DNA from: a virus
Length of the DNA stretch: 23,089 nucleotides
Strand: one strand, 5' to 3'
IMG/VR virus record: IMGVR_UViG_3300045996_001607
Coordinates: 1 to 23,089 of that record
The position numbers were made by a program, and so were the translations under genes. The stretch's first letter is position 1. Each line of letters starts with the position of its first letter. Positions 3,101 through 22,791 of the stretch are shown in pieces. The notes beneath the pieces were generated by a model that worked only from the letters and a program-made list of their open reading frames with translations, searched no databases and was not told the origin of the DNA.

Positions 3101-3301
3101 CTCGGGAGGCCCGGCGCGAACATCGGCGGCCCGGCCCTCGCGGCGAACGCCGGCGGAGGCGGCGGAGCCACGTATGTCCTCAACGTCACCGTCCCCGTCC
3201 AGGGCCACGTGCTCACCGAGCGGAACCTCGTCGACGTCGTCACGAAGGGCATCCGGGACGAGCTCGGCCGGACGCCCGACCTTCTCGAGCCCAGGCGGTA
3301 A
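161..3301 (+). CDS. Tail tape measure protein
   Basis: This 1046-residue protein sets tail length and is packed inside the tail tube. The N-terminus resembles actinophage tape measures, with short Ala/Gly-rich helices (LTARLTADTSGFYRGM) followed at roughly residues 90-310 by the phage minor tail/tape-measure conserved region (for example the DAAVAMTQLAKAGFNAQQV part). Hydrophobic segments lie around residues 400-490, as in proteins that help DNA cross the membrane. Residues about 745-910 are charged and helical, likely coiled coil. The C-terminus ends in a Gly-rich stretch and a short beta-like segment. It carries a 37-residue tandem repeat at residues 508-581. The ATG at 161 overlaps the upstream gene; a weak purine run (GAGGG) precedes it. 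The next gene follows after 10 bases. Confidence 0.93.
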   Translation: MPLTVAQLTARLTADTSGFYRGMAVANSAMIRSGGIASRVFAGIGIGVGSAMLLSIREAGRFEQSLNVLGAVVHATGGQFNALQKHALKLGRDITLPGVSANDAAVAMTQLAKAGFNAQQVIAASKGTMQLGTAAQIEYTEAADMTTRALKMFKLPASDAGRVANVLAAGANASTASMTDMAYGLMNAGMGAKMMNVSVEETVGSLAMLVDAGLSGERAGTALNTMFYRLASPTKAAAAMMGELNIKAFDAKGNFRGLQPIIKDFARATADMGDAQQAAMFKTIFGMRANQAMMGLLDKAGKTQKNYTDAVTGTNAAQEIAAARMKGFHGMLEKVSNGVSTLATELGLKMLPWLTETGKRLATWISNLDPEEIATAFGRVFRPIMAGFAGLFSFVKTNADWLAPLLIGVYTATKAFAALQLAMKGVAAIKIASSLGALALIGGPLGVAAASIGAIAAALAALAFAFPGVRTAIANFLSDISMAFSEGGISAVFDVFIQRVKDFFTGTTRTIEVGDKTIILKTRPGIELLLDRLKSEVKGLFIQQDRTVEVGDKTITIKAGTPALQITWGGMWEGLKARVKRGFDEAFEYDSNSAMGKLNAKVLAGLRGLLTSAGNLSRAIGDGIFNKLQAGVSRVGPMVARNMNKILPVLTGIPGIVSGAAQAIGRAIFDGIMSGLGDLAGAIKSKVVGAVSGAYGAVKRFALIDSPSKLFAKGVGAPIGQGIIMGFLDGSRDLPEKMKQKVKEALEKAKQAVVDARSAFSTAFSDLASSMTSAWDKHFSNYKTPAEKLLEQMDIEDKLRSINQGITDAQKELNDAIAKGDQEAIDAANRRMEEALRQKTRFELEGQAKVERALATEIIEAEKYKMDQRLEAMRKEWERYGTTSKIVQQETQALLAEYGIDYRGLGQNFGRALAMGLRDSIGEVTSAAEAVAAAIAAVLKVKSPTDEGPMSDLDKWWTGFAETLVAGIKRNDILGAVTGALGRPGANIGGPALAANAGGGGGATYVLNVTVPVQGHVLTERNLVDVVTKGIRDELGRTPDLLEPRR
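1682..1903 (+). repeat. Tandem 37-residue repeat within the tape measure protein
   Basis: Two consecutive 37-residue units (residues 508-544 and 545-581) begin with TRTIEVGDKTI and DRTVEVGDKTI and continue with an L-rich amphipathic part ending in VKGLF and VKRGF-like sequence. The beta-hairpin-like 'RT[IV]EVGDKTI' core is nearly identical in protein, but the codons have diverged, which suggests an old internal duplication. Confidence 0.75.
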
Positions 3302-3311
3302 CCTCCGATGT

Positions 3312-6300: not shown

Positions 6301-6464
6301 CGGGAGTCATCGACCTAGAGGCCGCGATCCAGTCGATCGAAATGTCCATGGGCGAAGACCGAAAGCTGGTCGTAAAGTGGAACATCGCGCCTCCGACAGG
6401 AGCGTCCCAAGTCTGGAAGCTCGGCACGAGTACACTTGGCGTCGATACCTACCTCGGGTTCTAA
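3312..6464 (+). CDS. Minor tail protein fused to Ig-like and clan GH-A glycoside hydrolase domains, with signal peptide-like N-terminus
   Basis: The frame encodes about 1050 residues if it starts at the GTG at 3312. Residues 1-25 look like a Sec signal peptide (TPFLRTLTLLALLLFGILSG, then GLA-HH), followed by a Cys/Thr/Pro linker (37-55). Residues 56-200 are beta-rich, and about 215-298 match an actinobacterial Ig-like repeat (ending SDDVGKFVRVLVTATEG). Residues about 310-650 form a TIM-barrel hydrolase like families 5/39: WEVWNEPN gives acid/base Glu434 and IWVTEHG gives nucleophile Glu571. From residue 667 (FFGAAFGYNPYDTDPVYVDL) to the end it matches actinophage minor tail/hub proteins. Likely role: degrading a surface glycan during adsorption. 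No Shine-Dalgarno is visible at 3312; ATG 3477 would remove the signal peptide, and ATG 5259 could give the tail domain alone. A competing 55-codon frame from ATG 3308 has poorer codon bias. Confidence 0.88.
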   Translation: MTPFLRTLTLLALLLFGILSGTGLAHHRPGHCKPACTSTTTSTTIGTTTSPGPTDMATIGLATPGAFSFSPVGNEKRAYLTSLAADGDFTTIEIHDTDLGWVSGAIVGSPVTITARPRLYVGYHFSGVDKFRLHIWDDNGSNAPGALLASTAEITIATPTLTYNDPGSGTNQWIDSDTYSDGTAAPFTADSSTQHIIALRANYTPTSSGPSNTEQPQLTGTPVQGETLTARDGTWTGSPSFTRKWQRATTAGGTYSDIAGATGATYVLQSDDVGKFVRVLVTATEGANSTDAASNVTYEAVLSPAPAVTSDEVGFSVGGNFFGRSEAQQELELDDMATLAPGGYIRFELNWSAIETSKGTFNWTTYDRLIADVEQRGFKLLLGILFAPTWAKTGTALYPTNNSDLADFAAAAVNRYKPGGTQGRNVRAWEVWNEPNIRPFWDPTVGLGADATARAASRAKYSGMLSAAYDAIKAADPNATVLTAGFAPFGEYTSATADGINPKAYFEAMVETDGVGGKFDAVAVHTYVSTDVQDYDVSIYSGWSDLEDNTVSYRSIMEDNSLGAKPIWVTEHGLPIGQTGTKYPGGVTQQAQADFVTEGYRRWAAFTWPKGPLIYFSHRPETSATGAYQYGIVEATPASPLSNRRAWYAMRDFARDSLESESGVGLFFGAAFGYNPYDTDPVYVDLSDRLLSWSFQRGRRTVTDAIDPARLTAHLYNGDRALDPSYLSSPYAGDVEPGVRVVLDIDGRRVYSGFVEGWPQDWDGRLNTVTITALDLFDTFNVDMIPATVYGVQKTGARITAGLSEIGVPSAWYAGVNTGIDDAQSHTAGEEDNWLEHFKKVAVTEQGYLFQDRTGLVKFYQRHALSLSPFTDIQVTVSNDPAFGEWPLSDVDDPDYSVKDIRNDVRVTREGGATTRVVDSASVTKYRKRTYQVTTIHDSTTVPADLATWILQRDAYPKLRPDGVTLEPQMEPGMLHPIIERDLADRVRLRVQPPGPAGVIDLEAAIQSIEMSMGEDRKLVVKWNIAPPTGASQVWKLGTSTLGVDTYLGF

Positions 6465-6474
6465 AGGAGGCACC

Positions 6475-6933
6475 ATGCGTGACGCAACGCAGATGCTCGG
6501 TTTCACCGGCCCCTCCGGGGTCGTGCGCGTAGCGGAACCTTCGAAGTCGGCGCTCGATGCTTTTCTGGACGCGTACCAGGCCCGACCGACGTTCACTGGC
6601 TTCCCGAACCGCCGGGGTGACGATGGCCTGCCAGCGCGGGGTGTCGTCGACGAGCTCGGGACGACCGTCAAGATGTACGTCAACGAAGACAGATGGGTCG
6701 GCGACTGTCCGTTCTGCAACAGCGGGATCGCCGGCGTCTACCGACTCGACGAGTGCATCTGTCTTGACTGCGGGCGGCGAATGGGTGTGTCTTGGCCCTC
6801 GAGCACCCACGTCGAGCAGGCCCAAGTTGTGCTCGAGCGACGTCCGGAACCGAACCGAAACTGGATCCCGGATCGTGAGAGCGTGGACGACCTCAAGGTC
6901 GAGAACATGACGCGCGGGATCCCGATTACGTAA
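6475..6933 (+). CDS. Zinc-ribbon protein of unknown function in the tail gene cluster
   Basis: The ATG at 6475 follows a strong ribosome binding site (AAAGGAGG, 4 bases upstream), giving 152 residues. The middle holds a probable zinc ribbon: CPFC around residues 81-84 and CICLDC about 20 residues later, so four or five cysteines are available for one zinc ion. The rest is hydrophilic, with no membrane segment. The stop overlaps the next start (TAATG). A small zinc-ribbon protein between the receptor-binding-type tail protein and fibre-like proteins may be a virion component or an assembly factor; nothing in the sequence decides between these. Confidence 0.8.
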   Translation: MRDATQMLGFTGPSGVVRVAEPSKSALDAFLDAYQARPTFTGFPNRRGDDGLPARGVVDELGTTVKMYVNEDRWVGDCPFCNSGIAGVYRLDECICLDCGRRMGVSWPSSTHVEQAQVVLERRPEPNRNWIPDRESVDDLKVENMTRGIPIT

Positions 6934-7427
6934 TGGCCTGGACTGCTCCCCGCACCTGGGTTACCGCCGAGCTCGTCACCGCCGCGCTCATGAACACGCA
7001 CGTGCGCGACAACCTCAAGGAGCTCTACCATCTGATCGGATCGTTCGGCGGGAGTGACTACAGCGTCTCCCCTGAACTCACCTGGAACCTCATGCTTGCT
7101 GTTGGTCCGGTGACCGTCGCCGGCAACCCCGTCTACGTCGAGGTCGCTGCACGAATGGTCAGTTGGGCGGCCGGAGACGGTGGCGGCAAGATCGGCATCT
7201 GGGACTCCGGCAACACCACGGAGCTCAAACGTCTCTGGCAACGCGACGACACGTTCGGAACGACCACCGGCACCAGCACTGGAGGATTCCGTAACTGGTA
7301 CGAGGTGACCCCCTCCGCGGGTTCGATCACGTGGAACATTCGCGGCAACCCCGAAAACGGTACAGGCGGAGACTCTCTCTCGGCCTGGGGGCTGCGCGTG
7401 CGCGTTTGGGAGAAGGGCGGGCCGTGA
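6933..7427 (+). CDS. Tail-fibre-like minor tail protein (first of two paralogues)
   Basis: This 164-residue protein starts MAWTAPRTWVTAELVTAALMNTHVRDNL, an N-terminal module shared by many actinophage minor tail or fibre proteins, where it is probably the attachment helix. The remainder is a beta-rich, Gly/Thr/Trp-containing domain with alternating hydrophobics, compatible with a small beta-sandwich or trimeric fibre tip. It overlaps the zinc-ribbon gene by one base and is followed 3 bases later by a paralogue. Family recognition is good; adsorption function is inference from family and position. Confidence 0.85.
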   Translation: MAWTAPRTWVTAELVTAALMNTHVRDNLKELYHLIGSFGGSDYSVSPELTWNLMLAVGPVTVAGNPVYVEVAARMVSWAAGDGGGKIGIWDSGNTTELKRLWQRDDTFGTTTGTSTGGFRNWYEVTPSAGSITWNIRGNPENGTGGDSLSAWGLRVRVWEKGGP

Positions 7428-7430
7428 GTC

Positions 7431-7898
7431 GTGGCCTGGGTAACTCCACGCACGTTCGTCACTGACGAGTTCATGACGGCCGCGATGTTCAACACGAACG
7501 TTCGCGACAACGTCGGGGAGGCGTGGCGTCGTGTGGGCGGTGGCGGCCCGACCAGCCCGGCAGCACCGAACGGCTCGTTCGGCACGCTACTTACGATCGG
7601 GCCGATCACCGTTGACCCCGGTGTGCCGGTCCGCCTCGAGCTCGCCGCCCACATGGCCTCCGGGGGAACCGGGGGGATCCTGTCCGTCTACCACGCCACC
7701 GACGATACGGAGCTCACTCGGGTATGGGAAACCTCCGGACACGTGGCCGGCACCTTCGGAAGCGTTACTCCCCTCGAACACGAGGAAACGCCCGAGGCCT
7801 CGAGCGTCACCTGGCGGGTCCGGGGCTTCGGCTACGGGGGGGCATGCACGTTCTCAGGCCTGTCCTGGATCCTGCGCCAGCGTGGGGGTCCGGGGTAA
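7431..7898 (+). CDS. Tail-fibre-like minor tail protein (second paralogue)
   Basis: The GTG start at 7431 gives 155 residues beginning MAWVTPRTFVTDEFMTAAMFNTNVRDNV, clearly related to the preceding protein. Similar patterns continue through the beta-rich domain (a GPITVDPGVPVRLELAAHMAS segment corresponding to GPVTVAGNPVYVEVAARMVS upstream). The pair probably arose by tandem duplication and then diverged, as happens for host-range determinants. Translation is probably coupled to the upstream gene, because the gap is only 3 bases and there is no clear Shine-Dalgarno. A 76-base gap without a convincing gene follows; it contains a TAGAAT box at 7904-7909 with no good -35 partner. Confidence 0.85.
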   Translation: MAWVTPRTFVTDEFMTAAMFNTNVRDNVGEAWRRVGGGGPTSPAAPNGSFGTLLTIGPITVDPGVPVRLELAAHMASGGTGGILSVYHATDDTELTRVWETSGHVAGTFGSVTPLEHEETPEASSVTWRVRGFGYGGACTFSGLSWILRQRGGPG

Positions 7899-7974
7899 CC
7901 CGGTAGAATGGTGCCTATGGTCATCATCCCTTTTTGCGGTGTCTGACGTGCCGTACTCGAACGGAGATTCCCCC

Positions 7975-8181
7975 GTGTCCCGGCGCGAGCTCTCTCTGCA
8001 CTTGCAGCCGATCAAGGACGACATCTCCGAGATTCGCAGCGACATCTCGGAGGTTCGCACGGCGCTCGGCGCAGGGCCGCGCTGGTTCGGCGCTCGAGCG
8101 AACGCGATGGTCGACAAGTTCCTCCCGACGGCGATCGCCGCGGCGGCGCTTTACGTTCTCAGCGGGAGGCTCGGGTCATGA
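7975..8181 (+). CDS. Small coiled-coil plus transmembrane protein, XhlA/holin-like
   Basis: The protein has 68 residues from the GTG at 7975, which is preceded by GGAG at a plausible distance; a GTG at 7948 would add nine residues. Residues 5-30 show heptad-like spacing (LQPIKDDISEIRSDISEVRTAL), and a single hydrophobic segment (FLPTAIAAAALYVLSG) lies at the C-terminus. This coiled-coil-then-membrane arrangement matches small holin-associated proteins of the haemolysin XhlA type. It overlaps the next gene by ATGA and belongs to a run of membrane/secreted proteins after the tail genes, so a lysis role is the best inference. It could also be a generic membrane anchor. Confidence 0.75.
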   Translation: MSRRELSLHLQPIKDDISEIRSDISEVRTALGAGPRWFGARANAMVDKFLPTAIAAAALYVLSGRLGS

Positions 8182-9772: not shown

Positions 9773-10696
9773 CTACGCGCCGATCGAATCGAGCAGCGCG
9801 TCCACCTTCGGCTGAATCTCCGGGTACCGCGTCCGGTCAAGGGCGATCCGCTTGCAGTGCGGGATCCGGCCGTTCTCGGGGACAGCCTTGCCGATCGAGC
9901 GCAGGCCGTCCTCCCACTGCACCGCCGCCTCGATGATCTTCGCCCACGCAAGCTCGTTCAACTGCGCGACGGTGAGCGGGGCGACCTTCGCCGTGAGCGT
10001 GACGGCCTGGAGCGTGGTGATGCTCGTCCCCGACTGCTCGGCGGCCCACACCCAGACGCCGGAGACGTTGCCGGGGTTCGTCCGGAACCAGTCGACGTCG
10101 CGCCCGAGCGTCTTGTCGCCGAGGCCGATCACTGACGGGGCGGGGATGCCGTCCTGTCGGAGGTACGGCACGACGCGCTCCATCCCGTAGGTGAAGCCGT
10201 GGAAGTCGTAGCCCTCGGGAATGAACGTGACGCCGAGCTTTCGGCACGTCTCCGCGCCGCTGTTCAGCGTGGCGCCCGGGAAGCCGACCTCGGAGAACCC
10301 GAAGCTGACGATCGCGAGCGGGAACGTGATCCCGAGCTCGGCCTGCACGCCTCGGATGTACGCCTCGGTCATCGCGGCGACGTTCCAGCCGGCGAGCCAG
10401 TAGAGCTCCGTGTCGGCGATGTAGAACTCGAGCTTGTGCTTGCGCACGCGCGCGACGGTGATCGCGACGTCGGCGGCGACGTCCGGGCCATTGACGCCCC
10501 ATCCGCCGTGGCCGGCGAAGCCCATGGTGTTCTTGATCTGCGTGAAGGCGGCGTTGTTCGCCGCGGTAGAGGCGTTGTCGCCGCCGTGGACGTGAAGCTG
10601 GTGGGCGACGGCGGTCACACCGCCGCTCCTGAGAAGGTCCGGCGACGCGGCGCCCGCGTTCACAAGGAACGCTCCCTTGCGTTCAAACATCGTCAT
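9773..10696 (-). CDS. TIM-barrel, glycoside hydrolase-like protein of unknown function
   Basis: The product has 307 residues from ATG 10696, which follows GGAAGGAG and overlaps the DNA polymerase stop (ATGA). Eight beta strands can be followed in order: GAFLVNAG, AVAHQLHV, MGFAGHGGWG, LEFYIADTELYW, LAIVSFGFSEVG, VTFIPEGYDF, SVIGLGDKTL and VSGVWVWAAEQ. This is the pattern of a TIM barrel. The Asp/Glu pair at the end of strand 4 (ADTE) is placed as in many glycosidases, including GH25-type lysozymes. It ends with a helical region. No signal peptide is present. Possible roles are endolysin, virion glycosidase or an unrelated barrel enzyme; its place next to the polymerase gene does not decide. 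Family-level identity is not certain. Confidence 0.75.
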   Translation of the reverse strand: MTMFERKGAFLVNAGAASPDLLRSGGVTAVAHQLHVHGGDNASTAANNAAFTQIKNTMGFAGHGGWGVNGPDVAADVAITVARVRKHKLEFYIADTELYWLAGWNVAAMTEAYIRGVQAELGITFPLAIVSFGFSEVGFPGATLNSGAETCRKLGVTFIPEGYDFHGFTYGMERVVPYLRQDGIPAPSVIGLGDKTLGRDVDWFRTNPGNVSGVWVWAAEQSGTSITTLQAVTLTAKVAPLTVAQLNELAWAKIIEAAVQWEDGLRSIGKAVPENGRIPHCKRIALDRTRYPEIQPKVDALLDSIGA

Positions 10697-13053
10697 GCGC
10701 ACTCCTTCCACGTTCGTCCGGTTTCGAGCTCGACCTTGAAGGGTACCTCCACCGCAGGGCGCCCACGCTCATGCACGAACGCCGGCACGTCGACCTCCAT
10801 GATCTGCTGCATGCGTTCCTTGACCTCGTCGACGACCTCGTCCCGTGCCATCACGAGGATTGAGTCATGGACAGTGAGCAAGACCTGCGCGTACTCTTCG
10901 TTGAACTGCTGATCCATCATCGTCACGGCGATCGTCGTCATCTGTCCGGCGAGGCCTTGGATCGGCGTGTTCACTGCCTGCCGCTCGATGGAGCTCGCGT
11001 CCCACGGAAGCAGGAGCGGGAACCGCCGGCGGAACCCGAGCAGGTTCTCGACGAACTTCTGCTTACGGCCGATCGCCTTCTGCTTGCGGATCCAGGCGTA
11101 CAGGCCGGAGAACTTGCGCTCGAACGCGCGCTGGAACGTGCGGATCTGGTTCTCCGTCCACACCTGCTGACCGCTCTCAGCAAGATTCGTCATGACCTCG
11201 CTCTTCGCCAGACCGGCCGGGGACAGACCGTAGATCGAACCGAAGCTGACGGTCTTCGCGAGCACGCGCTCGGCCTTGGTCACCTGCTCCTTCGGCTTGC
11301 CCCAAAGTGCGAACGCGACCTCCTGGTGGACGTCGCCGTCCTCCTGGAACGTCTTCACGAGGGTCGGGTCGCCCGAGTAAGAACCAGCAGCGACCCGGAG
11401 CTCAAGCTGCGAGTAGTCCGCGGCAATCAACGTCCAGCCCTCGAGCGCGATGAAGCCTTCCATCACGTCGGGCGGGATGTTCTGGAGGTTCGGCTTGGCC
11501 ATCGACACGCGCCCCGTCTCGGTGCCGTGCAGACGAACCTCCCCGCGCACGCGGCCGTCGGGGTCGATCTTGTCGAGGATCCCCTTGACGTACGTCGCGC
11601 GCGTCTTCGCGTCCTTGCGCCACTCGAGCAGCGTGTCGATCATGCCGGCGACCTCGGGGCGCGCCTTGCGCACGTCGCGCGCGAGCGTCTTGAGGACATC
11701 CTTCTCGGTCGACGGGGCATCGGTCTTCCGCTTCCAGTCGTTCTTCGAGGCGATGATCGGCAGCCCCAGGTCCTCGTACAGGACCTCGCGGAGCTCGTTC
11801 GGCGAGCTCGGGCGGAACTCGTCTTTGCCGGTCAGCGCGAACGCCGTCTCGCGGAGCTCGACAAGCTGCGCGTCGATCGCGGTGTTGAGCTCATCCAGCT
11901 TGCGCTCGAAGAACGCGCGGTTCACCGGCACGCCGCGCCGCTCAATGTTCGAGAAGGCGATGGCCGCCGGCACGTACACGTCCTCGAGCAGTGGCCGCAG
12001 CTTCGGCGACTCGTCCTCGAGCTCGCGCAGCTTGAGCGGGTAGAGCATCGCCGTGTACGTCGTGTCGAGCGCCTGGTACACGCAGAGCTCTTCGAACATC
12101 TCCTGCTGCGTGGTCGGCAGCGTCTCGGGGTCGAGCCACTCCTTCAAGAACTTGCCCATGTCGATGCCGTAGTCACCGGCGTCGAAGTGCTTGCGCGCGA
12201 GCTCCTTGAGCCCGTGCGCCTTGAACTTGCCACCGCGCTCGTCGTGCAGGTACGACGCGAGCATGGTGTCGGACAGCTTGGAGTGGTGGCGGTTCAGGCC
12301 GGGGAACGCCTGCATCAGGTGCTTGTAGTCGAACTTGAGGTTGTGGAAGACGAGCACGCCGGGGTAGTTCTCGAGATACCAACGCGCGGCCTCGCTCGGC
12401 CCTTCGAAGATGATCGAGTGGCCAAGCTCGTCGGAAATTCCGATTGTCAGAATTTCCGACTCAAGTCCCAGGCCCGTCGTCTCGATGTCTCCGCCCAGGT
12501 GTGAGGCGTTCCACAACCCCGCGACCGAAGTGTTCTCGTCGACGAGCCACCGCTGCGCCTGCTCTGCCGTCGCGTCACGCGTCACACGGGTAACAACGGG
12601 AGCGGGAGTTGGGAGAGGCCGGTCGTTGTCGTGCAGCTTCGCCAGGTCGAACGAGAAGTCCCGGAACCAGTCGGCGTCCGAGAAGCACGTGCGCGGCGTG
12701 AACGTCGCAATCGCGTAGTGGCCTGCCTCGGTCATCATCCCGCGTCCGCGGATCTTCGTGATCGGCGGAGACTTCGGGAGGCCGAAGTATGCCGCGATGG
12801 GGAGTGCGCCCAGGAACAGGATCTTGTCGACGTAGGCCGCCTCCGCACGTAGGCGGTCAGTCTCCGCGTTCCAATCCTTGGCCTTGAGTTTCCCGAGCGC
12901 GTCCCCGTCGAGCTTCTCGTCGACGACGCTAGTGATCTGCACGTCCTGCGGCTGGAACCCAACGGCCTCGAGCGTGCGCATCAGCAGCGCGCCGGCAGTG
13001 CGCGTGCCGTACAGCGGGAGCGGGTAGTCGTGAATGACGAGCAGCTTGCTCAA
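10693..13053 (-). CDS. Family A DNA polymerase with 3'-5' exonuclease and uracil-DNA-glycosylase-like N-terminal domain
   Basis: The 786-residue protein is probably the replicative polymerase. Residues 1-145 resemble the fold of UDG families 4/5 (YGTRTAGALLMRTLEAVGF; KILFLGALPIAAYFGL; PITKIRGRG), but the usual GExPG and HPS motifs appear as HDYP and TPR, so glycosylase activity is doubtful. The proofreading domain has DIETTGL (Asp189, Glu191), HNLKFD (Asp242) and YQALD (Asp330). The polymerase domain has motif A DYSQLELR (Asp546), motif B RVLAKTVSFGSIYG (Lys600, Phe604) and motif C HDS (729-731) where HDE is usual. The start is a TTG at 13053 that overlaps the upstream stop, pointing to translational coupling; no strong Shine-Dalgarno is seen. 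The stop overlaps the TIM-barrel gene. Confidence 0.95.
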   Translation of the reverse strand: MSKLLVIHDYPLPLYGTRTAGALLMRTLEAVGFQPQDVQITSVVDEKLDGDALGKLKAKDWNAETDRLRAEAAYVDKILFLGALPIAAYFGLPKSPPITKIRGRGMMTEAGHYAIATFTPRTCFSDADWFRDFSFDLAKLHDNDRPLPTPAPVVTRVTRDATAEQAQRWLVDENTSVAGLWNASHLGGDIETTGLGLESEILTIGISDELGHSIIFEGPSEAARWYLENYPGVLVFHNLKFDYKHLMQAFPGLNRHHSKLSDTMLASYLHDERGGKFKAHGLKELARKHFDAGDYGIDMGKFLKEWLDPETLPTTQQEMFEELCVYQALDTTYTAMLYPLKLRELEDESPKLRPLLEDVYVPAAIAFSNIERRGVPVNRAFFERKLDELNTAIDAQLVELRETAFALTGKDEFRPSSPNELREVLYEDLGLPIIASKNDWKRKTDAPSTEKDVLKTLARDVRKARPEVAGMIDTLLEWRKDAKTRATYVKGILDKIDPDGRVRGEVRLHGTETGRVSMAKPNLQNIPPDVMEGFIALEGWTLIAADYSQLELRVAAGSYSGDPTLVKTFQEDGDVHQEVAFALWGKPKEQVTKAERVLAKTVSFGSIYGLSPAGLAKSEVMTNLAESGQQVWTENQIRTFQRAFERKFSGLYAWIRKQKAIGRKQKFVENLLGFRRRFPLLLPWDASSIERQAVNTPIQGLAGQMTTIAVTMMDQQFNEEYAQVLLTVHDSILVMARDEVVDEVKERMQQIMEVDVPAFVHERGRPAVEVPFKVELETGRTWKECA

Positions 13054-13232: not shown

Positions 13233-13444
13233 AGCTTGGTTCCCCTCACTTCCTCTTCGGTTTCGATTGTCTCGACCTTGCCGTCGCACCAGAGACAGCG
13301 GTACTCCCCGTAACGCGGGCGCCACGAGGCGAGGATGATCGCGGTCGAGCGGAAGCCTTCGACGTGCCGCTTGGCTGGACACTCACGGTTGCGGCAGATC
13401 GACGTGAGTGCGATGTGCTCCACATCGGGCGCCTCGTCAGTCAC
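13229..13444 (-). CDS. Small zinc-finger-like protein
   Basis: The GTG at 13444 overlaps the upstream stop (GTGA), giving 71 residues. Two cysteine pairs, CRNREC near residue 17 and CLWC near residue 50, are spaced as in a small zinc ribbon, and the segment between them is beta-like (STAIILASWRPRYGEYR). The C-terminus is acidic. It could bind nucleic acid or protein; the family is not recognised. Confidence 0.7.
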   Translation of the reverse strand: MTDEAPDVEHIALTSICRNRECPAKRHVEGFRSTAIILASWRPRYGEYRCLWCDGKVETIETEEEVRGTKL

Positions 13445-13854
13445 TGTCGCCCTGCCGCCCGCATGAGCTCTTGGCGTGTGTCAGCGCGCTGCTGTTCCCG
13501 CAGACGCTCACGCACGTACTCGGCGCCGTTCAGGTTGAACATGATCGCGGCAGCGTGGTCTTCGTCGTCGTCGCCGCGAAGGTACTGGCGCGCGTGGCGC
13601 GCGAAGCCTTCGAGGAACCGCTCGAGGTCCTCTTCGGTGCAGGCGTTCATCCAGTTGCGCTTGCCCTTGCGCTCGGCCGCGTTGGTCAGGAGCTCGGCCC
13701 ATCGATCGAACATCGGTCCGTCCATCGCGAGCCGGTAGTCGACCTTGCCCTCAGTCGACCCGCGAATCATCCCAGACGGATGCTGGACGTCGTCGGGATG
13801 GACGCGACGCTCACCTACTTCACGTACCCAGGCCTCGTGGTCAGCAGCACCCAT
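13441..13854 (-). CDS. dATP/dGTP diphosphohydrolase N-terminal-domain-like protein (DUF5664 type)
   Basis: The product has 137 residues from ATG 13854 (AAAGGA upstream). It carries the pattern of the actinophage dATP/dGTP diphosphohydrolase N-terminal family: GMIRGSTEGKVDYRLAMDGPMF at residues 28-49, RNWMNA at 66-71, RFLEGFARHARQYLRGDDDEDHAAAIMFNLNGAEYVR at 79-114, with conserved Asp97, Glu98 and His100 probably binding metal. Members are linked to phage nucleotide pools, hydrolysing purine deoxynucleoside triphosphates; the biochemical role of this branch is less certain. It sits between the ssDNA-binding protein and polymerase genes, supporting a replication role. A large hairpin (13877-13912) precedes it. 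Confidence 0.8.
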   Translation of the reverse strand: MGAADHEAWVREVGERRVHPDDVQHPSGMIRGSTEGKVDYRLAMDGPMFDRWAELLTNAAERKGKRNWMNACTEEDLERFLEGFARHARQYLRGDDDEDHAAAIMFNLNGAEYVRERLREQQRADTRQELMRAAGRQ

Positions 13855-13929: not shown

Positions 13930-14424
13930 TTACTTGAACGCCTTGCCGCCGGCGCGGGTCTGCGCCTTCTCGCCCTCGGCGGTCTTGCGCGGTGACGTCT
14001 GCGGGTTGATCGCGATGAGCGTCTCGACGTCGTTCTTGTCGTTCCCCTGGTAGTCCTTGACCTTCACGACAGCCTTGGCAGGGAGTCCCACGAGCGCGGG
14101 CTTGACGACGATGCGCTCGTCACCGTCCTCTTCGACCTCGAACTGGATGTTCTCTTCGAAGATCCCGAGGTTCTCGAAGACCTCCTTCATGCGCCAGAGC
14201 GCCTTCGGATGGAACGAGCTCGTGAACCAGAGCAGGCGCCCCTCCGCGTCGGCTTCGACGCCGTCCGGCGTCTCGGTGACCTCGAGCGTGTAGTTGAGGT
14301 ACGGGTACTCGGACTTCTGCGAGTCGCGCAGCACCACCTTCGTGATGACGATGGGGTACTCGCCCGCCGGCAGGACCTCGAACCCTCCCTCGACGTCGCT
14401 GAAATCGACGTTGATGCTTGTCAT
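13930..14424 (-). CDS. DUF669-type single-stranded DNA-binding protein
   Basis: This 164-residue protein starts at ATG 14424, after GACCGAAAGGAAGG. Residues 1-115 fit the phage DUF669 family (FSDVEGGFEVLPAGEYPIVITKVVLRDS, then a QKSEYPYLNYTLEVTE strand pair), a group thought to act as ssDNA-binding proteins in replication and recombination. The C-terminal 45 residues are polar and probably flexible (TSPRKTAEGEKAQTRAGGKAFK) and end basic, not acidic as in cellular SSB. The AAA ATPase and Cas4-like exonuclease genes lie upstream in the same transcript, forming a recombination-replication set. A candidate promoter lies directly before it (14452-14471). Confidence 0.85.
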   Translation of the reverse strand: MTSINVDFSDVEGGFEVLPAGEYPIVITKVVLRDSQKSEYPYLNYTLEVTETPDGVEADAEGRLLWFTSSFHPKALWRMKEVFENLGIFEENIQFEVEEDGDERIVVKPALVGLPAKAVVKVKDYQGNDKNDVETLIAINPQTSPRKTAEGEKAQTRAGGKAFK

Positions 14425-14703: not shown

Positions 14704-15405
14704 CTATTCGTCGAAGCCGAGCGCGTCGAAGATCGACGTGATCGTCGGGTTGTCGATTTCATCGGGCGGGGGTACGCCGTATGGCATACGCACCTTCGTC
14801 CGGATCTTCGCGTAGTTGTTCAGCAGCAGCGAGCGGTACGTCTCGCCCTCGTCGTTCGTCGCGAGCGCGAGGTAGCCAGAGAGCGAGAGCATCCCCGGAA
14901 TCTCGTACGCCATCTTGCCGCTGAACGACGGGACAGTGATGCGTCCCTCGCGCGGATCCGTCTCTTCCTTCGAGTGCGCGGTGAAGAACACGTGCATCGG
15001 CAGGTCGCGGAACTCGCGAACGAACCGGCGCATCTGGATCATCGCCTTGCCGTAGTCCTGGATCTGCAACGCGTCCTTGTCCTTGCGCCGGCCAGCCTCG
15101 TCGTCGAGGATCGTGAGCAGCGCGCCGATGTGCGTCTCCGCAGCGGAGTCGACGCCCGTGCTCTTGAAGCCCTCGTCGTTCGCCTGGAGGCGCGCGAACT
15201 CCGTGTTGTAGTCCTGCCAGTTGCGCACGTGCGCGACGACCCAATCCGTTCCCTCCCCGGGCATGCCGGCGAGCGAGTCGGTTCCGCCCTCGAAGTCGAG
15301 GATGAGGATCGGCGCCGTGCGCTCGTCCTGCGCCGCGGTCCCGATAAGCACGGTCTTGCCGTGCCCCGGCGGACCGAAGTACAGGTGATTCGCGTAGCGT
15401 TTCAT
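14704..15405 (-). CDS. Sak4-like RecA-fold ATPase (phage nucleotide-binding protein)
   Basis: This 233-residue protein has a Walker A motif GPPGHGKT at residues 11-18, a strand ending LILDFEGG that suits Walker B or the following switch, and a later TGVDSAAET segment. The arrangement matches the AAA_24/Sak4-like ATPases found in phage recombination modules, which bind ssDNA and promote annealing or strand exchange together with an exonuclease and an SSB. The neighbours fit: the Cas4-like exonuclease gene upstream overlaps by one base (TGATG) and a DUF669 protein lies downstream. Function is inferred from family and context. Confidence 0.87.
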   Translation of the reverse strand: MKRYANHLYFGPPGHGKTVLIGTAAQDERTAPILILDFEGGTDSLAGMPGEGTDWVVAHVRNWQDYNTEFARLQANDEGFKSTGVDSAAETHIGALLTILDDEAGRRKDKDALQIQDYGKAMIQMRRFVREFRDLPMHVFFTAHSKEETDPREGRITVPSFSGKMAYEIPGMLSLSGYLALATNDEGETYRSLLLNNYAKIRTKVRMPYGVPPPDEIDNPTITSIFDALGFDE

Positions 15406-16487
15406 CAGACTCCTTCCGGGATAACGAACCGATCGGGCTTGCGCTCGTAACCGTACTCAATGAGGAACTCGAGGTCCTCCTGCATTTCCATACCGTTGCA
15501 GATGGACAGGACGGGACACTTGCGGCAATTCCACTGCGACGGGTTCGGGTAGCGCGCGCCCTCGTGCTGCGTCGCGTCGCGCATGTCGATGTACTCGTTG
15601 TAGAGGCGGCGCTCGAACGACTCGAGCTCTGCCGGCGAGCGGCGCACGGCCTCGCGGCCGAAGAACTGATCCCATCCCTTGTCCTGGAGGAAGCTGAGGT
15701 ACTCGGCGTAGTCACCGGCGGCCAGACCTTCGGGGTCTTCGCGCTTCACCGTCGTGAGGAACAGGTCGTACGTCGTGCGCGCGTTACGCGCCTGCGAGAA
15801 CATCTTCCCCGGCTTGTTGGACTTGAGCCTCTGCGGGGGGTGCGGCGGCTCCTTGCTCAGGCGGTTGTAGATCGCCCCTTCGGCGTACTCGCCAGTCAGG
15901 CGCCAGTAGCCGTAGCAGTAGGACGTCAACTGGTCGTCGACGTCGAGCGCGTTCGAGTCGTGCGGCGATGCCGCGCTCTTGTGGTCGACGATCCAGACGC
16001 CGCCCTTCTTCGTGACGACCATGTCGATCTGGAACGAGAAGAGCGGGTTCCCCGGCAATGGCTCGCGCGTGTCGGGGTCGAGGATCGGCACGTAGCCACG
16101 TTCTTCAATCGCAAGGTCGAGGACCTCGTCGAAGAACGGATGTTGGCGGTCGAACGTGTCGTAGTACGTAAGCATCGTGATGCCCTTGAGCCGATGGTCC
16201 TCCCACTCCTGTTCGATGCCCTCCTGGTAAAGCGGGCCGTAGTCACGCGCGAACTGATCGTCAGCCTCACCCCACGCTTCGCCGAACCAGTTGAGTGCGG
16301 TCTGGAGGTTACGGTCGTCGCCGTAGTAGCCCTCGAGCCCCTTGTGGATCGTGTTGCCGAACTCGAGCTCCCACGCGATCGCGTTACGGCGCTGCAACTT
16401 CTCCTGCGTGGTCAGCCACCACTTGCGCCGGCAGGTGCGGAACTCGCGCTTCTCGGTTGCGGTCGTGACGAACCGAACCTCACTCAT
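15405..16487 (-). CDS. Cas4/RecB-family PD-(D/E)XK exonuclease with iron-sulfur cysteines
   Basis: The 360-residue product shows the RecB nuclease pattern: His48 in GNTIHKGLEGYY, Asp155 in FQIDMVV, the Asp168-His169-Lys170 motif (IVDHKSA) and a QLTSYCYGY motif near residue 186. Cys19 (CRRKW) and Cys321, Cys324 and Cys330 (CRKCPVLSIC) are placed as the four ligands of a 4Fe-4S cluster, as in Cas4 and AddB. It probably resects DNA ends for recombination with the adjacent ATPase and ssDNA-binding protein. It is longer than typical stand-alone Cas4, with an insertion before the last cysteines. There is no CRISPR system in the window, so it is a phage replication/recombination enzyme. Confidence 0.9.
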   Translation of the reverse strand: MSEVRFVTTATEKREFRTCRRKWWLTTQEKLQRRNAIAWELEFGNTIHKGLEGYYGDDRNLQTALNWFGEAWGEADDQFARDYGPLYQEGIEQEWEDHRLKGITMLTYYDTFDRQHPFFDEVLDLAIEERGYVPILDPDTREPLPGNPLFSFQIDMVVTKKGGVWIVDHKSAASPHDSNALDVDDQLTSYCYGYWRLTGEYAEGAIYNRLSKEPPHPPQRLKSNKPGKMFSQARNARTTYDLFLTTVKREDPEGLAAGDYAEYLSFLQDKGWDQFFGREAVRRSPAELESFERRLYNEYIDMRDATQHEGARYPNPSQWNCRKCPVLSICNGMEMQEDLEFLIEYGYERKPDRFVIPEGV

Positions 16488-16957: not shown

Positions 16958-16986
16958 ATTGTAGCGGCCGGGTCGGACGTTACTTG
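16958..16986 (-). promoter_or_regulatory. Candidate promoter with TCCGACCC operator element
   Basis: On the minus strand TACAAT (16963-16958) is a very good -10 box. TCCGACCCGGC (16977-16967) lies exactly 3 bp upstream, as in the main divergent promoters. The -35 position (CAAGTA) is weak. The element overlaps the 3' end of the peptidase gene. Confidence 0.5.
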
Positions 16987-17603
16987 AGCAGCGCCTTGAG
17001 CACCGCGCGCTCGTCGCCCGAGACAGCCACCGTCGACACGACTTCAACCGGATCCCCCACGTAGGCGTTGAGGTCGATCGCCACGCGGATCGCGGCGTCC
17101 GCCGCCTGCACGGCCTTGGACAGCGTCAGGTCGGCGATCGTCCCGACGCTCTCCATGAGTGCGCCGGCAGCGACCTCCCCTCCCGAGCCTTCCGTGGCCC
17201 AGGGGAGTCGGTCTTCGGCAACTTGGAAGTCGGGGAGGATCGAGAAGAGCCGGTGCCGGACAGCGAAGATCAACGCCGAGTCGGGCATTTCAAGGATCGA
17301 GTCCTCGTGGAAGATCGCGAGTGTGCCCGATACGTCGAGGATGTGGATCATCTGGGGCACGAGCTCCTTCACGGCCCATCGGTACTCGTCCTGGCCGATG
17401 TATGGGCCGTCGAAATGCTCGAGCCCAAACTCGAGCGCCTGTCCGACGCGGGGGGAACCGCAGCCGGCCATCGCGACGGTGTCGCTGAACTGGATGATCT
17501 TGGAGTCGATGCGCTCGCGCTTACTTCCGCCGTATCCTGTGGCCTGTGAATCCGCTGCGAGGACGACACCGTTGCGGTACTTCACTCCGACGATCGCGGT
17601 CAC
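16980..17603 (-). CDS. HslV / 20S proteasome beta-like Ntn-hydrolase peptidase
   Basis: This 207-residue protein starts at GTG 17603 (GGGAG upstream) with M-TAIVGVKYRNGVVLAADSQAT. Removing Met exposes Thr as residue 1, the catalytic nucleophile of this family, with no propeptide, as in HslV. Asp is then residue 17, and Lys is residue 34 (canonical 33). The GCGS segment and the later EGSGGEVAAGAL motif match the proteasome Ser129 loop, and AAIRVAIDLNAYVG matches the last helix region, although the usual Asp166 and Ser169 appear as Asn and Val, closer to HslV. It should form a ring-shaped compartment that degrades proteins fed by an ATPase; no HslU- or Mpa-like ATPase is visible here, so a host unfoldase or an ATP-independent role is possible. 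Confidence 0.88.
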   Translation of the reverse strand: MTAIVGVKYRNGVVLAADSQATGYGGSKRERIDSKIIQFSDTVAMAGCGSPRVGQALEFGLEHFDGPYIGQDEYRWAVKELVPQMIHILDVSGTLAIFHEDSILEMPDSALIFAVRHRLFSILPDFQVAEDRLPWATEGSGGEVAAGALMESVGTIADLTLSKAVQAADAAIRVAIDLNAYVGDPVEVVSTVAVSGDERAVLKALLK

Positions 17604-17619
17604 TTCACTCCCTTCATCG

Positions 17620-18689: not shown

Positions 18690-18924
18690 GGTCGCCAGCA
18701 TAGACGACGATCGCCTTCTCTTCACGGCGCACCGTGTAGAGGACGTCGTCGGCGTCGATGTCGACAACCTGGACGCGCGACTTGGCCTCGCGCTCGACTA
18801 GGTGGAGGGCCTCGAGCGTCGCGGCCGTCTCCCCCGGGTACTTCGCCGGGCGCGTCTCCCCGTCGTAGCGCAGGCGGAAGCGCGTTCCGTCTCCGTCTGA
18901 CCGGCGGTGACGACGGATCTTCAT
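18640..18924 (-). CDS. Small hypothetical basic protein
   Basis: The ATG at 18924 overlaps the stop of the RlpA-like gene (ATGA), giving 94 residues. The N-terminus is basic (MKIRRHRRSDGDGTRFRLRY) and the rest alternates strands and helices (TLEALHLVEREAKSRVQVVDIDADDVLYTVRREEKAIVVYAG). No known family is recognised. It overlaps the endonuclease start by 50 bases, which is unusual here and leaves some doubt about one of the two boundaries. Confidence 0.65.
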   Translation of the reverse strand: MKIRRHRRSDGDGTRFRLRYDGETRPAKYPGETAATLEALHLVEREAKSRVQVVDIDADDVLYTVRREEKAIVVYAGDHGEAPTKTQRSPQAAV

Positions 18925-19286
18925 CGGACACGCGTCCAGTACACGCGGCAGACGCCGCAACGAGTCACGCCGGCGACGCGCGCCGCCGCGTACGTGAGGT
19001 CGAAGTCACGCCCACGCACGAACGGGCCGCGGTCGATCACGCGCACGAGCACGCAGCGCGTACGGCAGACACGGACGATCGCACCGAGCGGAAGCGTCTT
19101 GTGCGCGACGCCCCACGTGCGCGGGGTGAGCACGGTGCCGTCGGCTGTGCGGTTGCCGTACAGCCCTGGGCCGTACCACGAGCTCACGGCCTGCGCCTCG
19201 GAGCGGCCGTCGGCTTCCTCCGTGTACCCGATGAGCAGCAGCGCACAGAGGATGCCGACGAGGATTCCTACGGCGACGAGCCTCAT
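18921..19286 (-). CDS. Membrane-anchored RlpA-like double-psi beta-barrel protein
   Basis: This 121-residue product from ATG 19286 begins with a hydrophobic segment (RLVAVGILVGILCALLLIG), either a signal anchor or a signal peptide. Residues 36-102 match RlpA-like barrels: SSWYGPGLYGNRTADG, GVAHKTLPLGAIVRV (His62) and VIDRGPFVRGRDFDLTYAAA (Asp85). RlpA proteins bind or cleave peptidoglycan glycan strands; the Glu often found after TANG is Thr here, so cleavage is uncertain. Cysteines in CRTRC and CGVC could form disulphides outside the membrane. It overlaps both neighbouring genes by ATGA. Being near the start of the early operon argues against a role only in final lysis. Confidence 0.83.
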   Translation of the reverse strand: MRLVAVGILVGILCALLLIGYTEEADGRSEAQAVSSWYGPGLYGNRTADGTVLTPRTWGVAHKTLPLGAIVRVCRTRCVLVRVIDRGPFVRGRDFDLTYAAARVAGVTRCGVCRVYWTRVR

Positions 19287-19495
19287 GCCTTGCGCTCCGC
19301 CGCCGCCGCCGTTATCTGCGCCTCGAGCTTCGCCGTTGCGCTGGCGAAGTCGAAGTCGGAGATGGACGTGAACGTGCCAAGCTGGTACATCTGCGCCATG
19401 AGCGTCATGGCGTCTGCGATCCGGCGCGCGGAGTCGACGATGCCGAGCAGCGCGAGCAGGAAGAAGATGCTGAGTACGATTGCGAGGAAGAGCAC
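19283..19495 (-). CDS. Small single-pass membrane protein, first gene of the minus-strand operon
   Basis: The GTG at 19495 follows GACCGAAAGGAGCACC, giving 70 residues. The N-terminus is a transmembrane helix (LFLAIVLSIFFLLALLGIV). The remainder is helical and polar (DSARRIADAMTLMAQMYQ; ASATAKLEAQITAAAAERKA) and is likely cytoplasmic. A near-consensus promoter lies about 35 bases upstream. It is probably made very early; no family is recognised. Confidence 0.7.
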   Translation of the reverse strand: MLFLAIVLSIFFLLALLGIVDSARRIADAMTLMAQMYQLGTFTSISDFDFASATAKLEAQITAAAAERKA

Positions 19496-19526
19496 GGTGC
19501 TCCTTTCGGTCGGGTTGTCCCGGGGA

Positions 19527-19555
19527 ACAGTACACGTCGGGTCGGACGGTGTCAA
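19527..19555 (-). promoter_or_regulatory. Main minus-strand early promoter
   Basis: TTGACA (19555-19550), a 17-bp spacer and TACTGT (19532-19527) form a near-consensus sigma70 promoter in front of the GTG at 19495. The spacer carries TCCGACCCGAC (19546-19536), 3 bp upstream of the -10 box. It should drive the long operon down to about 9.8 kb. Confidence 0.85.
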
Positions 19556-20414: not shown

Positions 20415-22339
20415 AGCTCGACGACATTCTCAGTCGTCTTGAGGGCGTCGAAGAACGAGGGGAGGGATGGGTCGCGCGCTGTCCGGCGCACGACGACGAC
20501 AACCCCTCGCTCTCGATCGGCCGCGGACGGAACGGCGCCGTGCTGCTCAACTGCTTCGGCGGCTGCACGTTCGAAGAGGTTATGGACGCACTCGAAGAAC
20601 GCGAAAGCGGTGTCACAAGCGTTGGCACCCCAGACAACCCCCCAATGACCGTCGACTTCCGCGTCGTTGGTAAGGCGGAAGACGGACTGCGCTGGTGGGC
20701 CGCGAAGACGAAAGTGCCCGTCGAGGTCTGGGAGGCGCTCGGGACAGAGGCGTACGGCACAGGCGTCAAGTTCCTCTTCGAGGGGTTCAACGCTTTCAAG
20801 TACCGGAAGCCTCCGAGGCCCGACGGGTCGAAGGATGTCGGGTGGGCCGGTGACGTTGCGCCGCCATTCTGGCCCGTCCCCCCTGTCGAGCCGGAGGGAA
20901 CGGAAGCGTGGGTTGTGGAGGGAGAAAGCGACTGTGGCACGATGCGCTACGCCGGCGCGCAATGCTTCACAACGACGAAGGGATCGAAGGGCGTTCCGAC
21001 GGTCGCGATGTTCGAAGAGCTCGCGACGCGCGGCATCACGACGATCACGATCGTCGGGGACGGAGACAGCGCGGGCGAAGAGTACATGCGGCGGGCCGCA
21101 GTCAACGCGATCGCCGCCGGCATGCACGTCAAGACTGTCGAACTCCGCCGGCTGTTCGACCCGTTTAGCGGGATGGTCGACCTCAACGACGCATGGAAGG
21201 CGTGCCTCGAAGAGGCCGGTGGAGAACGGGCCAGCGCGCAACGCCTCTTCCTCGAGCGGCTCGAGTCCGTCACCGAGTCGTACGTCACCGCTCTCCGCGT
21301 GCTCGACGGAGAGACGGCGCTCGACTGGTCCGACCAGGAGGTCAACTGGCTCGTGCCCGACCTGATCGCTCCCGGTGACAAGGGCATCATCATCGCCGCG
21401 CAGAAGAGCTACAAGACGTGGATCTGCTTGGACCTCGTGCGCTCGATGCTCATGCTCCAGCCGTTCATGCGGCGCCCGGAATGGGTGCCGAAGCGGCCGT
21501 CGCGCATCGGGTTCGTCGAAGAAGAAGGATCGAAGAACGCCTTCGGCAAGCGCATGTCGACGTTGCAGATCCCGCGCGAGGTCTGGCGCGATCGGTTCCG
21601 GCTGATCCACCGCAGCGGGTTTCGCTTCACCGAGCCGGCCGCTGTCGCCGAGCTCATCCAGATCGTGCGCACGCACGAGCTCGACGTCCTGATCCTCGAC
21701 CCACTCCAGCGAATGATCCCCGGCCTCGACGAGAACAGCGCGAGCGAAATGGCGGTCGTGTGGGATGCCGTCGCCGACCTTCACCGCGCGCATCCTGATC
21801 TAGTCGTCCTCCTGGTTCATCACGCAGGGAAGGGGAAAGACGCAGGTTGGGACGCGGCTCGCGGCTCGAGCCGCCATGCCGGCGAGGTCGACTTCGGGAT
21901 CTTCGTCCAGCGCGAGAAGGAGCGCGGCCACTTGAAGGTGCGCGTCGATGGTCGCGACATCCCCGAGTACCTTGGCACCGGCGAATACTTCACGACACGG
22001 GTCGAGATTGACATGGACGACGACCCGACCAAACGCCGCTTCGTGCTCGACGCCACCGAGCTCGAGGTCACGGTCGTCGAGAAGCCGAAGGACGACGCAC
22101 CGAAGCCGCCGTCCCTGGCGGAAGCGACCGCCGCGCGCAAGCGGGCGGGGGTCTACGAGGCGGTGGCGGGAGGCCTCGAGACGGTGGCCGAGCTCGTGAT
22201 GCAGACGGGCTTGACACGGACGACGGTTCAGCGTATCCTCGGGGAGCTCGAGAAGGATGGTGTCGTCACGAAACTGCCGGCGTCACCCGGGATGGCAACC
22301 CGATACCAGACCACACTGACCGAAAGGAGTACCACATGA
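20411..22339 (+). CDS. Primase-helicase: zinc finger, TOPRIM, RepA-like ATPase and winged-helix C-terminus
   Basis: The 642-residue product starts at GTG 20411, overlapping the upstream stop. A primase zinc finger (Cys24, His27, Cys48, Cys52) opens the protein. A TOPRIM domain follows with WVVEGESD (Glu170) and TIVGDGDSAG (Asp217, Asp219), then DLNDAW, the usual TOPRIM end. An AAA_25/RepA-type RecA fold covers about residues 310-540, with P-loop AAQKSYKT (Lys335) and Walker B LDVLILDPLQRM. The C-terminus (about 590-635, LVMQTGLTRTTVQRILGELEKDGVV) is a winged helix-turn-helix, perhaps for origin binding. It should unwind DNA and make primers for the polymerase encoded on the other strand. A promoter for the next gene lies inside its 3' end. 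Confidence 0.93.
   Translation: MKLDDILSRLEGVEERGEGWVARCPAHDDDNPSLSIGRGRNGAVLLNCFGGCTFEEVMDALEERESGVTSVGTPDNPPMTVDFRVVGKAEDGLRWWAAKTKVPVEVWEALGTEAYGTGVKFLFEGFNAFKYRKPPRPDGSKDVGWAGDVAPPFWPVPPVEPEGTEAWVVEGESDCGTMRYAGAQCFTTTKGSKGVPTVAMFEELATRGITTITIVGDGDSAGEEYMRRAAVNAIAAGMHVKTVELRRLFDPFSGMVDLNDAWKACLEEAGGERASAQRLFLERLESVTESYVTALRVLDGETALDWSDQEVNWLVPDLIAPGDKGIIIAAQKSYKTWICLDLVRSMLMLQPFMRRPEWVPKRPSRIGFVEEEGSKNAFGKRMSTLQIPREVWRDRFRLIHRSGFRFTEPAAVAELIQIVRTHELDVLILDPLQRMIPGLDENSASEMAVVWDAVADLHRAHPDLVVLLVHHAGKGKDAGWDAARGSSRHAGEVDFGIFVQREKERGHLKVRVDGRDIPEYLGTGEYFTTRVEIDMDDDPTKRRFVLDATELEVTVVEKPKDDAPKPPSLAEATAARKRAGVYEAVAGGLETVAELVMQTGLTRTTVQRILGELEKDGVVTKLPASPGMATRYQTTLTERSTT
22211..22239 (+). promoter_or_regulatory. 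Near-consensus promoter inside the primase-helicase gene
   Basis: TTGACA (22211-22216), a 17-bp spacer and TATCCT (22234-22239) lie about 97 bases before ATG 22336. No TCCGACCC element is present in the spacer. It could give extra transcription of the phosphoribosyltransferase-like gene and those following. Confidence 0.6.
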
Positions 22340-22791
22340 TCTACCACTCGCACCACACACGGGGCTGGAACAACGCCACCTACGAGTCGCTCGCCGACCT
22401 GGCCGAAACCGTGGAGGACGCGTACAAGATACTTGCTCCCCTCCAGGACCAGTTCGACTGCATCGTCACGAGCGGGATGTCGGGCGTCGTCGTCAGCGCG
22501 CCGCTGGCGCTTCGTCTGCGGAAGCCGCTGGTCATCGTCCGGAAGACGGAGGACAAGTCCCACCAGCCGACGACGAAGGGGATGATCAACAGGCGTGACC
22601 TCAAGAGCCGTTGCCTGTTCGTGGACGACTTCACCTGCGAGGGCAACACCCGCGCGCGCGTGCAGCGGTCGGTCGAAGCCGCGGTCCTGCTGGAAGAGGA
22701 CGACCTGGGCATGCCCGCGAGGCCGAAGATCGTCGGCGAGTACCTGTACCGCGACAACACGGTCTACCTCTACGAAAGGAGCGCGTCATGA
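22336..22791 (+). CDS. Phosphoribosyltransferase-like protein
   Basis: The product has 151 residues from ATG 22336 (GACCGAAAGGAGTACCAC upstream, ATGA overlap). The fold of type I phosphoribosyltransferases is recognisable: a strand and loop CIVTSGMSGVVVSAPLALRL at residues 42-61, VIVRKTEDKSH at 67-77, then the PRPP-binding strand and loop CLFVDDFTCEGNT at 93-105 with the Asp97-Asp98 pair. Such enzymes join a base to PRPP or act on related substrates in nucleotide salvage; the substrate cannot be read from the sequence. It may support nucleotide supply together with the diphosphohydrolase-like protein. Confidence 0.82.
   Translation: MIYHSHHTRGWNNATYESLADLAETVEDAYKILAPLQDQFDCIVTSGMSGVVVSAPLALRLRKPLVIVRKTEDKSHQPTTKGMINRRDLKSRCLFVDDFTCEGNTRARVQRSVEAAVLLEEDDLGMPARPKIVGEYLYRDNTVYLYERSAS

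Follow-up and report, generated by a model that had tools for sequence, protein, structure and literature searches.

The window, i.e. the whole stretch of 23,089 bases that was analysed, which is a fragment held as an IMG/VR virus record, carries on its minus strand (17603 to 16980) an apparently intact gene of 207 codons encoding a proteasome-like protein of 207 amino acids. Our analysis confirmed the observation of this gene in the window. The gene adds a new and divergent member to a family already known in phages, and it appears to belong to a small phage clade with its own conserved neighbourhood, a module for replication and recombination. The best explanation, to which we assign a probability of about 0.5, is that the product is a self-assembling threonine peptidase that is independent of an unfoldase and is made with the phage replication module. 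The features used in the argument are collected in Table 1.

Table 1. Features of the proteasome-like gene and of its neighbourhood in the window.
Feature	Position	Strand	Basis
Proteasome-like threonine peptidase gene	16980..17603	-	207 aa, GTG start 17603, stop included
Shine-Dalgarno-like AAGGGAG	17608..17614	-	4 bases 5' of GTG, read from sequence
Thr2 codon (Thr1 of mature protein)	17598..17600	-	invariant 65/65
Asp18 codon (Asp17)	17550..17552	-	invariant 65/65
Lys35 codon, counted with Met (Lys34 of the earlier note; Lys33 equivalent)	17499..17501	-	invariant 65/65
Ser140 codon (Ser129 equivalent), in GSGG	17184..17186	-	alignment column table
N179-A-Y-V182 codons (Asp166 and Ser169 positions)	17058..17069	-	alignment column table
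Cas4-type PD-(D/E)XK exonuclease, downstream	15405..16487	-	PF12705 3.9e-19, phrog_1218, synteny
Sak4-like ATPase (single-strand annealing)	14704..15405	-	phrog_124 7.3e-36, synteny
DUF669 / ssDNA-binding-like protein	13930..14424	-	PF05037 3.1e-8, phrog_378
Family A DNA polymerase (PolA), same strand block	10693..13053	-	PF00476 4.3e-80

The GTG at 17603 is the earliest start codon in the open frame, the stop codon is TAA (16982-16980), and the frame at the same coordinates (16980-17603) of the plus strand is not open; the earlier note on this DNA had not given the strand. Because this GTG is the first start of the frame and has AAGGGAG upstream, the product should begin Met-Thr, as that note had proposed, exposing Thr1. 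A Met that precedes Thr is removed by methionine aminopeptidase, and once it was removed Thr1, with Asp17 and the Lys at 33/34, would be the nucleophile of an N-terminal threonine peptidase. A promoter scan found none, and there is one weak terminator-like site at 17699-17685 (0.6 expected).

The protein belongs to the proteasome family. It matched Pfam PF00227 (Proteasome) at E 5.6e-12 (46.1 bits, cut-off 22.4), and among the PHROGs it matched phrog_1040 ('peptidase HslV family') at E 1.8e-18. We also scored it against profiles built from 98 non-redundant AAH-like, 30 HslV, 20 bacterial 20S beta, 10 alpha and 16 Anbu sequences; the AAH-like set, which had been reduced from 169 to these 98 rows, combined phage sequences with sequences encoded by genomes of Rhizobiales, Azospirillum, Frankia and Paenibacillus (the best 80 of 116 genome relatives). 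The AAH-like profile gave by far the highest score, with 67.1 bits, as compared with 24.2 for bacterial 20S beta, 10.5 for HslV, 7.0 for Anbu and 3.3 for alpha. HslV proper was therefore ruled out (12.9 bits to NCBIfam NF003964, cut-off 137), as was Anbu. A 20S beta subunit was likewise ruled out, the NCBIfam scores being far below their cut-offs (TIGR03690, 14.8 against 191.9; TIGR03634, 47.1 against 224); the earliest start also leaves only a Met ahead of Thr1, where 20S beta subunits have a propeptide. The earlier description of an HslV/proteasome-like peptidase, for which a profile search against HslV, Anbu and 20S beta had been proposed as a check, thus holds for the proteasome family (PF00227 and the catalytic triad) and fails for HslV in the strict sense. 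BPH, CPH, WPH and PPH lay outside the profile comparison, BPH being compared by fold only. PPH was ruled out, as the window protein has 207 residues and a helix at 73-92, whereas Fuchs et al. 2021 (PMC8665760) describe PPH as having about 140 residues and no helix H2. We use the label AAH because the taxon spread of our set is the same as those authors give for AAH (PMC8665760), and not from their alignment; on this basis we infer that the phage and bacterial type to which the window protein is nearest by profile is AAH.

In an alignment of 65 sequences (the window protein and 64 relatives), M1, T2, D18, K35, S50, R52, D125, G139, G141 and P185 are invariant. The invariance of M1, T2, D18 and K35 in 65/65 indicates that the Thr/Asp/Lys residues, which had been described as in place (Thr1, Asp17 and a Lys at 34), are not there by chance, and no aligned homologue has lost Thr1 or the Lys, a loss that the earlier note had named as evidence against its reading. 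A wider alignment showed that the window protein also retains the equivalents of Gly47 (G49) and Ser129 (S140), as in HslV and 20S beta, whereas in an AAH-like sample the Gly47 position is Ser, Thr or Asp in 22/22 sequences and the Ser129 position is Cys in 19/22. The Asp166 and Ser169 positions hold Asn (N179) and Val (V182), just as had been read from the sequence, yet Val is the norm at the Ser169 position of AAH-like sequences (22/22) and Asp166 is not retained there either, so these substitutions are not peculiar to the window protein.

The AlphaFold2 model made from the 65-sequence alignment (pLDDT 89.9, pTM 0.85), a monomer and thus silent on assembly, has the proteasome-beta/BPH fold with four flanking helices (51-60, 73-92, 142-152 and 161-178) and a C-terminal helix (196-206), and in the 50 matches listed its Z scores with BPH and 20S subunits were 19.6-21.7. 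The best solved fold (VIA-align) was BPH (5ovs/5ovt; Z 21.7, rmsd 2.5-2.8 over 176-178 residues), in a near tie with archaeal and M. tuberculosis 20S beta subunits (Z 20-21, i.e. within about 1 of BPH). At E<=1e-3 the protein matched 40 viral models of BFVD, among which are one from Gordonia phage Daredevil and several from Caulobacter phages.

A profile made from the window protein and two homologues (L159 and L118) was used to scan IMG/VR viral contigs, and the best 80 of 89 relatives were kept. Three IMG/VR relatives match over the full length: L275, whose contig is 92 kb long, and the pair L276 and L277, which are near copies found in a single metagenome. They are about 35-39% identical to the window protein and have CGS-x-R, GSGG and the C-terminal region in common with it. 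A first tree without L275-L277 left the window protein unplaced, outside the AAH set (99/93). In a second tree, to which the three were added and from which Anbu, L182 and L252 were omitted, they formed a clade with the window protein (support 100/98), which was joined by Salicola phage SCTP-2 (100/94) and, with Geobacillus E3 and the T5-like group, made up a phage-only set (98/91). The side of this tree on which the window clade lies is that of AAH, and its split from HslV plus 20S beta was supported at 98/88. Both trees were built from samples of the families, and the deeper branching order is not firm because of long branches (1.78 for the window protein). Scans with the window protein found no relative among 119 pattern matches in genome contigs, and 9 plasmid records that were all below 60% identity; viral contigs scanned with the window's Cas4-type nuclease and PolA yielded no relatives. 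A Frankia-phylum genome encodes a proteasome-like protein (L182; G276:C21:10361-10945, minus strand) that has Thr1, Asp17 and a window-like C-terminus and fits no profile well.

The gene lies close to a replication/recombination module, the order in the window being proteasome gene, two small frames, nuclease, Sak4, small frame and DUF669. At L276 and L277 the proteasome gene is followed by genes for an AAA_28 protein and the PD-(D/E)XK nuclease, then by a small gene and a Sak4-like gene, and the DNA just upstream of L275 holds PolA, nuclease and Sak4, with the proteasome gene about 3.7 kb beyond Sak4. Nuclease, Sak4 or PolA genes near L275, L276/L277 and the window gene mean that in each of the three lineages the gene is kept close to this module, although three is few and one of them consists of two near copies. 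When 186 phage loci were searched with the module proteins of the window and L276, nuclease or Sak4 homologues were found only at L275-L277 (Sak4 within the flanks of all three, the nuclease within those of L276 and L277); the flanks searched were of 4-8 kb, so that more distant Cas4 or Sak4 genes at other loci would be missed. As many homologues lie outside replication modules, the replication context is a feature of this subfamily only. The L275 contig also encodes an AAA+ protein (6110-8134) 1.5 kb after its proteasome-like gene; we rejected it as a partner unfoldase because its Peptidase M41 domain marks it as an FtsH-like protease.

The window belongs to a tailed phage. A tape measure gene (phrog_1533, 4.5e-76), primase/helicase, endonuclease VII and PolA are present in it, and these ruled out cellular contamination. 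The top scores of PolA and the primase are mostly to Gordonia phages and other actinophages, the gene at 9303-9758 matches the mycobacteriophage family VG64 at 1.4e-48 (its ten best records are all mycobacteriophages, at 56-60% identity, and 78 Bacillus and 49 Streptococcus phage records also match), and the G+C content is 63-66%. From the actinophage-like PolA and primase, the VG64 match and the G+C content, the host is probably an actinobacterium. Nothing in the phage collection is close to the proteasome-like protein itself, the best match having only E 6e-7. Elsewhere in the window, the product of 13441-13854 (minus strand, near PolA) gave 25.8 bits to the PF18909 dATP/dGTP diphosphohydrolase N-terminal domain, against a cut-off of 27, and could have a role with the nucleotide pool or with modified bases; 3174-6464 (plus) encodes a tail-region protein with weak matches to glycosyl hydrolase family 10 (18.2 against 22.1 bits) and to an Ig-like domain; 18921-19535 (minus) encodes a DPBB lytic-transglycosylase-like protein (4.8e-15); and 22336-22791 (plus) encodes a phosphoribosyltransferase-like protein (phrog_2068, 2.5e-11).

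A survey of phage genomes for linked ATPases, which the earlier note had suggested, found PF07724 (Clp/HslU type) over its cut-off in one of 50 gene-bearing records, that of Salicola phage SCTP-2, and in 0/9 further records including L275-L277. The window, a 23 kb fragment, has no PF07724 and no PF00004 AAA protein. With no ClpX/HslU-type unfoldase in 49/50 records, a missing linked partner is the rule for the family; the description of a peptidase without its ATPase is thus right for the window, but the lack is not special to this phage, as PMC8665760 and PMC7823757 also indicate. Generic PF00004 AAA proteins scored over the cut-off in 16/52 records, unsorted, and some of those in other records may be partners.

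Proteasome-family peptidases had been taken to be uncommon in phages, which our counts contradict: one phage relative, used as the query, has matches in 177 of 50,697 phage records, many of them T5-like phages of Salmonella and Escherichia, and at least 574 of the 600 pattern-matching IMG/VR stretches listed encode a relative (the best 80 of these 574 were kept). Fuchs et al. (PMC8665760) report AAH in many phages, none of them actinobacterial, and give no suggestive genomic context for phage proteasome homologues. An 'HslV' without HslU has been described in Salmonella jumbo phage pSal-SNUABM-04 (PMC7823757), and Alteromonas phage V22 is reported to have a proteasome-like gene (PMC7289586); these earlier reports mean that genes of this kind were already known. 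We found homologues in the named actinophages Microbacterium phage Pumpernickel, Actinomycetia phage DSL-LC01 and Arthrobacter phages Hum25 and Pitbull. A terminase, portal, head-maturation protease or minor head gene adjoins the homologue in at least 32 of 122 non-redundant phage loci with AAH-like members (e.g. L101, L114, L116, L124, L131, L134 and L135), a count for which the 235 neighbours of the 122 loci were clustered, 172 singletons staying unlabelled, and ten cluster representatives were scanned. A nucleotide-metabolism gene, i.e. thymidylate synthase, DHFR, dCMP deaminase, MazG, thymidylate kinase or ribonucleotide reductase, lies within 4-5 kb at 8 of 15 annotated named-phage loci (L004, L006, L263, L267, L268, L269, L270 and L272). 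In the open-licence PMC literature our searches turned up no paper that deals with what phage AAH-like proteins do or with their neighbour patterns.

Tandem genes were also seen. At six of 167 viral loci (L283, L285, L287, L302, L319 and L321), on IMG/VR contigs that measure 31-369 kb (127-369 kb in four cases), two different proteasome-like genes are adjacent or close, and L287 has three. Each copy has, by eye, Thr1, Asp17 and Lys33, and the copies are of two types, with an FGVCG-PKVMD motif or an AAH-like G-SFR-GQLL motif; Aeromonas phage 2L372X has two adjacent annotated copies. This arrangement suggests that the products could form two-subunit rings.

The reading that we favour is that the compact beta-type subunit would most likely form a homo-oligomeric ring or double ring of the BPH type, which would act on unfolded or specific proteins and need no dedicated AAA+ unfoldase. 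The peptidase would probably be made together with the Cas4-type nuclease, Sak4, the ssDNA-binding protein and PolA, and this probable co-production with the replication/recombination block makes an early role likely, in which host or phage proteins would be processed or cleared during takeover and DNA replication. The replacement of both Asp166 and Ser169 counts against this explanation. More speculatively, the subfamily may be wired into the Sak4/Cas4/PolA module, with the stand-alone ring editing replication or recombination proteins, or destroying host nucleases or defence proteins at the site of replication.

Four other explanations were weighed against a self-sufficient ring. The ring could borrow a host unfoldase (ClpX/ClpC or Mpa/ARC) to degrade chosen proteins, since with no PF07724 over cut-off in 49/50 gene-bearing records any partner that is needed would usually be the host's, and one study reports Rhodococcus proteasome genes rising during infection by phage WC1 (PMC10986025); but homologues occur in phages whose hosts differ as widely as Salmonella, Vibrio, Geobacillus and Tenacibaculum, which a single host unfoldase fits poorly, and BPH is described in PMC8665760 as having no known unfoldase, so that we regard such borrowing as unlikely. 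A little less probable still is a non-protease Ntn hydrolase of proteasome fold, i.e. a monomeric and highly specific ligase or amidase comparable to connectase, a ligase. PMC8665760 cautions that the name of the family is no proof of peptidase activity, and the loss of D166 and S169 would be in keeping with such an enzyme, but the equivalents of Thr1, Asp17, Lys33, Gly47 and Ser129 are retained, and connectase is described there as lacking helices H1 and H2, both of which are present in the window model.

Besides an independent ring, which is the reading preferred here, the earlier note had raised the poisoning or redirection of host proteasomes, for which the subunit would join the host's 20S proteasome. 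The apparent host phylum does often have 20S proteasomes (PF00227 matches in 20/41 Frankia-phylum genomes), and beta subunits of M. tuberculosis and Rhodococcus are similar in structure to the model (Z 20.2-20.8). However, the protein's sequence is far from 20S beta (24.2 bits, against 67.1 to the AAH-like profile) and only 2/396 Frankia-phylum genomes match at E<=1e-3, one of them a known AAH carrier used as centre, so poisoning by mimicry is unsupported. Homologues are often carried, moreover, by phages that infect such hosts as E. coli and Salmonella, which to our knowledge have HslV and no 20S proteasome, and we therefore hold co-assembly to be very improbable. A role in head maturation seems just as far-fetched: the head and packaging genes that adjoin so many loci of the family would suit it, but at some of these loci an S78 prohead protease is encoded separately by the adjacent gene (PF04586 in 5/122 scanned neighbours, which were the same-strand ones among the first 150 of the 235), and the window gene and its subfamily sit in a replication block and not in a head block.

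If the proposed wiring into the module were true, the window protein would be a phage analogue of the control of DNA transactions by proteolysis, and the phage homologues would be split by module, i.e. head and packaging for many AAH-like members, nucleotide metabolism for the T5-like ones and recombination for the window's subfamily. The window adds an actinophage-like case and a small clade with a conserved neighbourhood to the known family. Together with the head-gene neighbours and the recurrent tandem pairs of relatives, this makes the role of phage proteasome-like proteins testable in cultured carriers (Arthrobacter Hum25, Microbacterium Pumpernickel and EPS7).

Among known systems, AAH/phrog_1040 proteins share with the window protein the Met-Thr start, the triad, S-x-R after strand 5, D-[FY]-Q-V and P185, and in PMC8665760 AAH is found in many phages with no unfoldase partner reported. 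The window protein differs in being 21-30% identical to the other members of the 65-sequence alignment, in its Gly47 and Ser129 equivalents, in its C-terminal helix and in lying with Cas4/Sak4 genes. Geobacillus virus E3 gp65, Escherichia phage EPS7 AGC_0103 (T5-like) and Salicola phage SCTP-2 gene 469, which fall into one set with the window clade, have Thr1, Asp17 and Lys33 as in the window (the E3 and SCTP-2 homologues being about 24-28% identical to its protein), but they adjoin nucleotide-metabolism genes. The homologues of Pumpernickel (gene 135), Hum25 (gene 81), Pitbull (gene 77) and DSL-LC01 are from phages of Actinomycetota, like the window's probable host group, and those of Pumpernickel and DSL-LC01 are in the same PHROG as the window protein; however, the Pumpernickel, DSL-LC01 and Hum25 homologues lie in a different part of the tree, and the contexts of these actinophage genes differ (tRNAs and ThyX, WhiB, or small genes). 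The pSal-SNUABM-04 case is alike in that a phage 'HslV' is present without HslU, in a different phage and host. PPH, from phages and their hosts according to PMC8665760, is also phage-borne, of proteasome fold and without a partner, and differs in its length and in helix H2. BPH, the best solved fold for the model, is 19% identical to the window protein in the structural alignment; it is cellular and, according to PMC5777263, a tetradecameric double ring.
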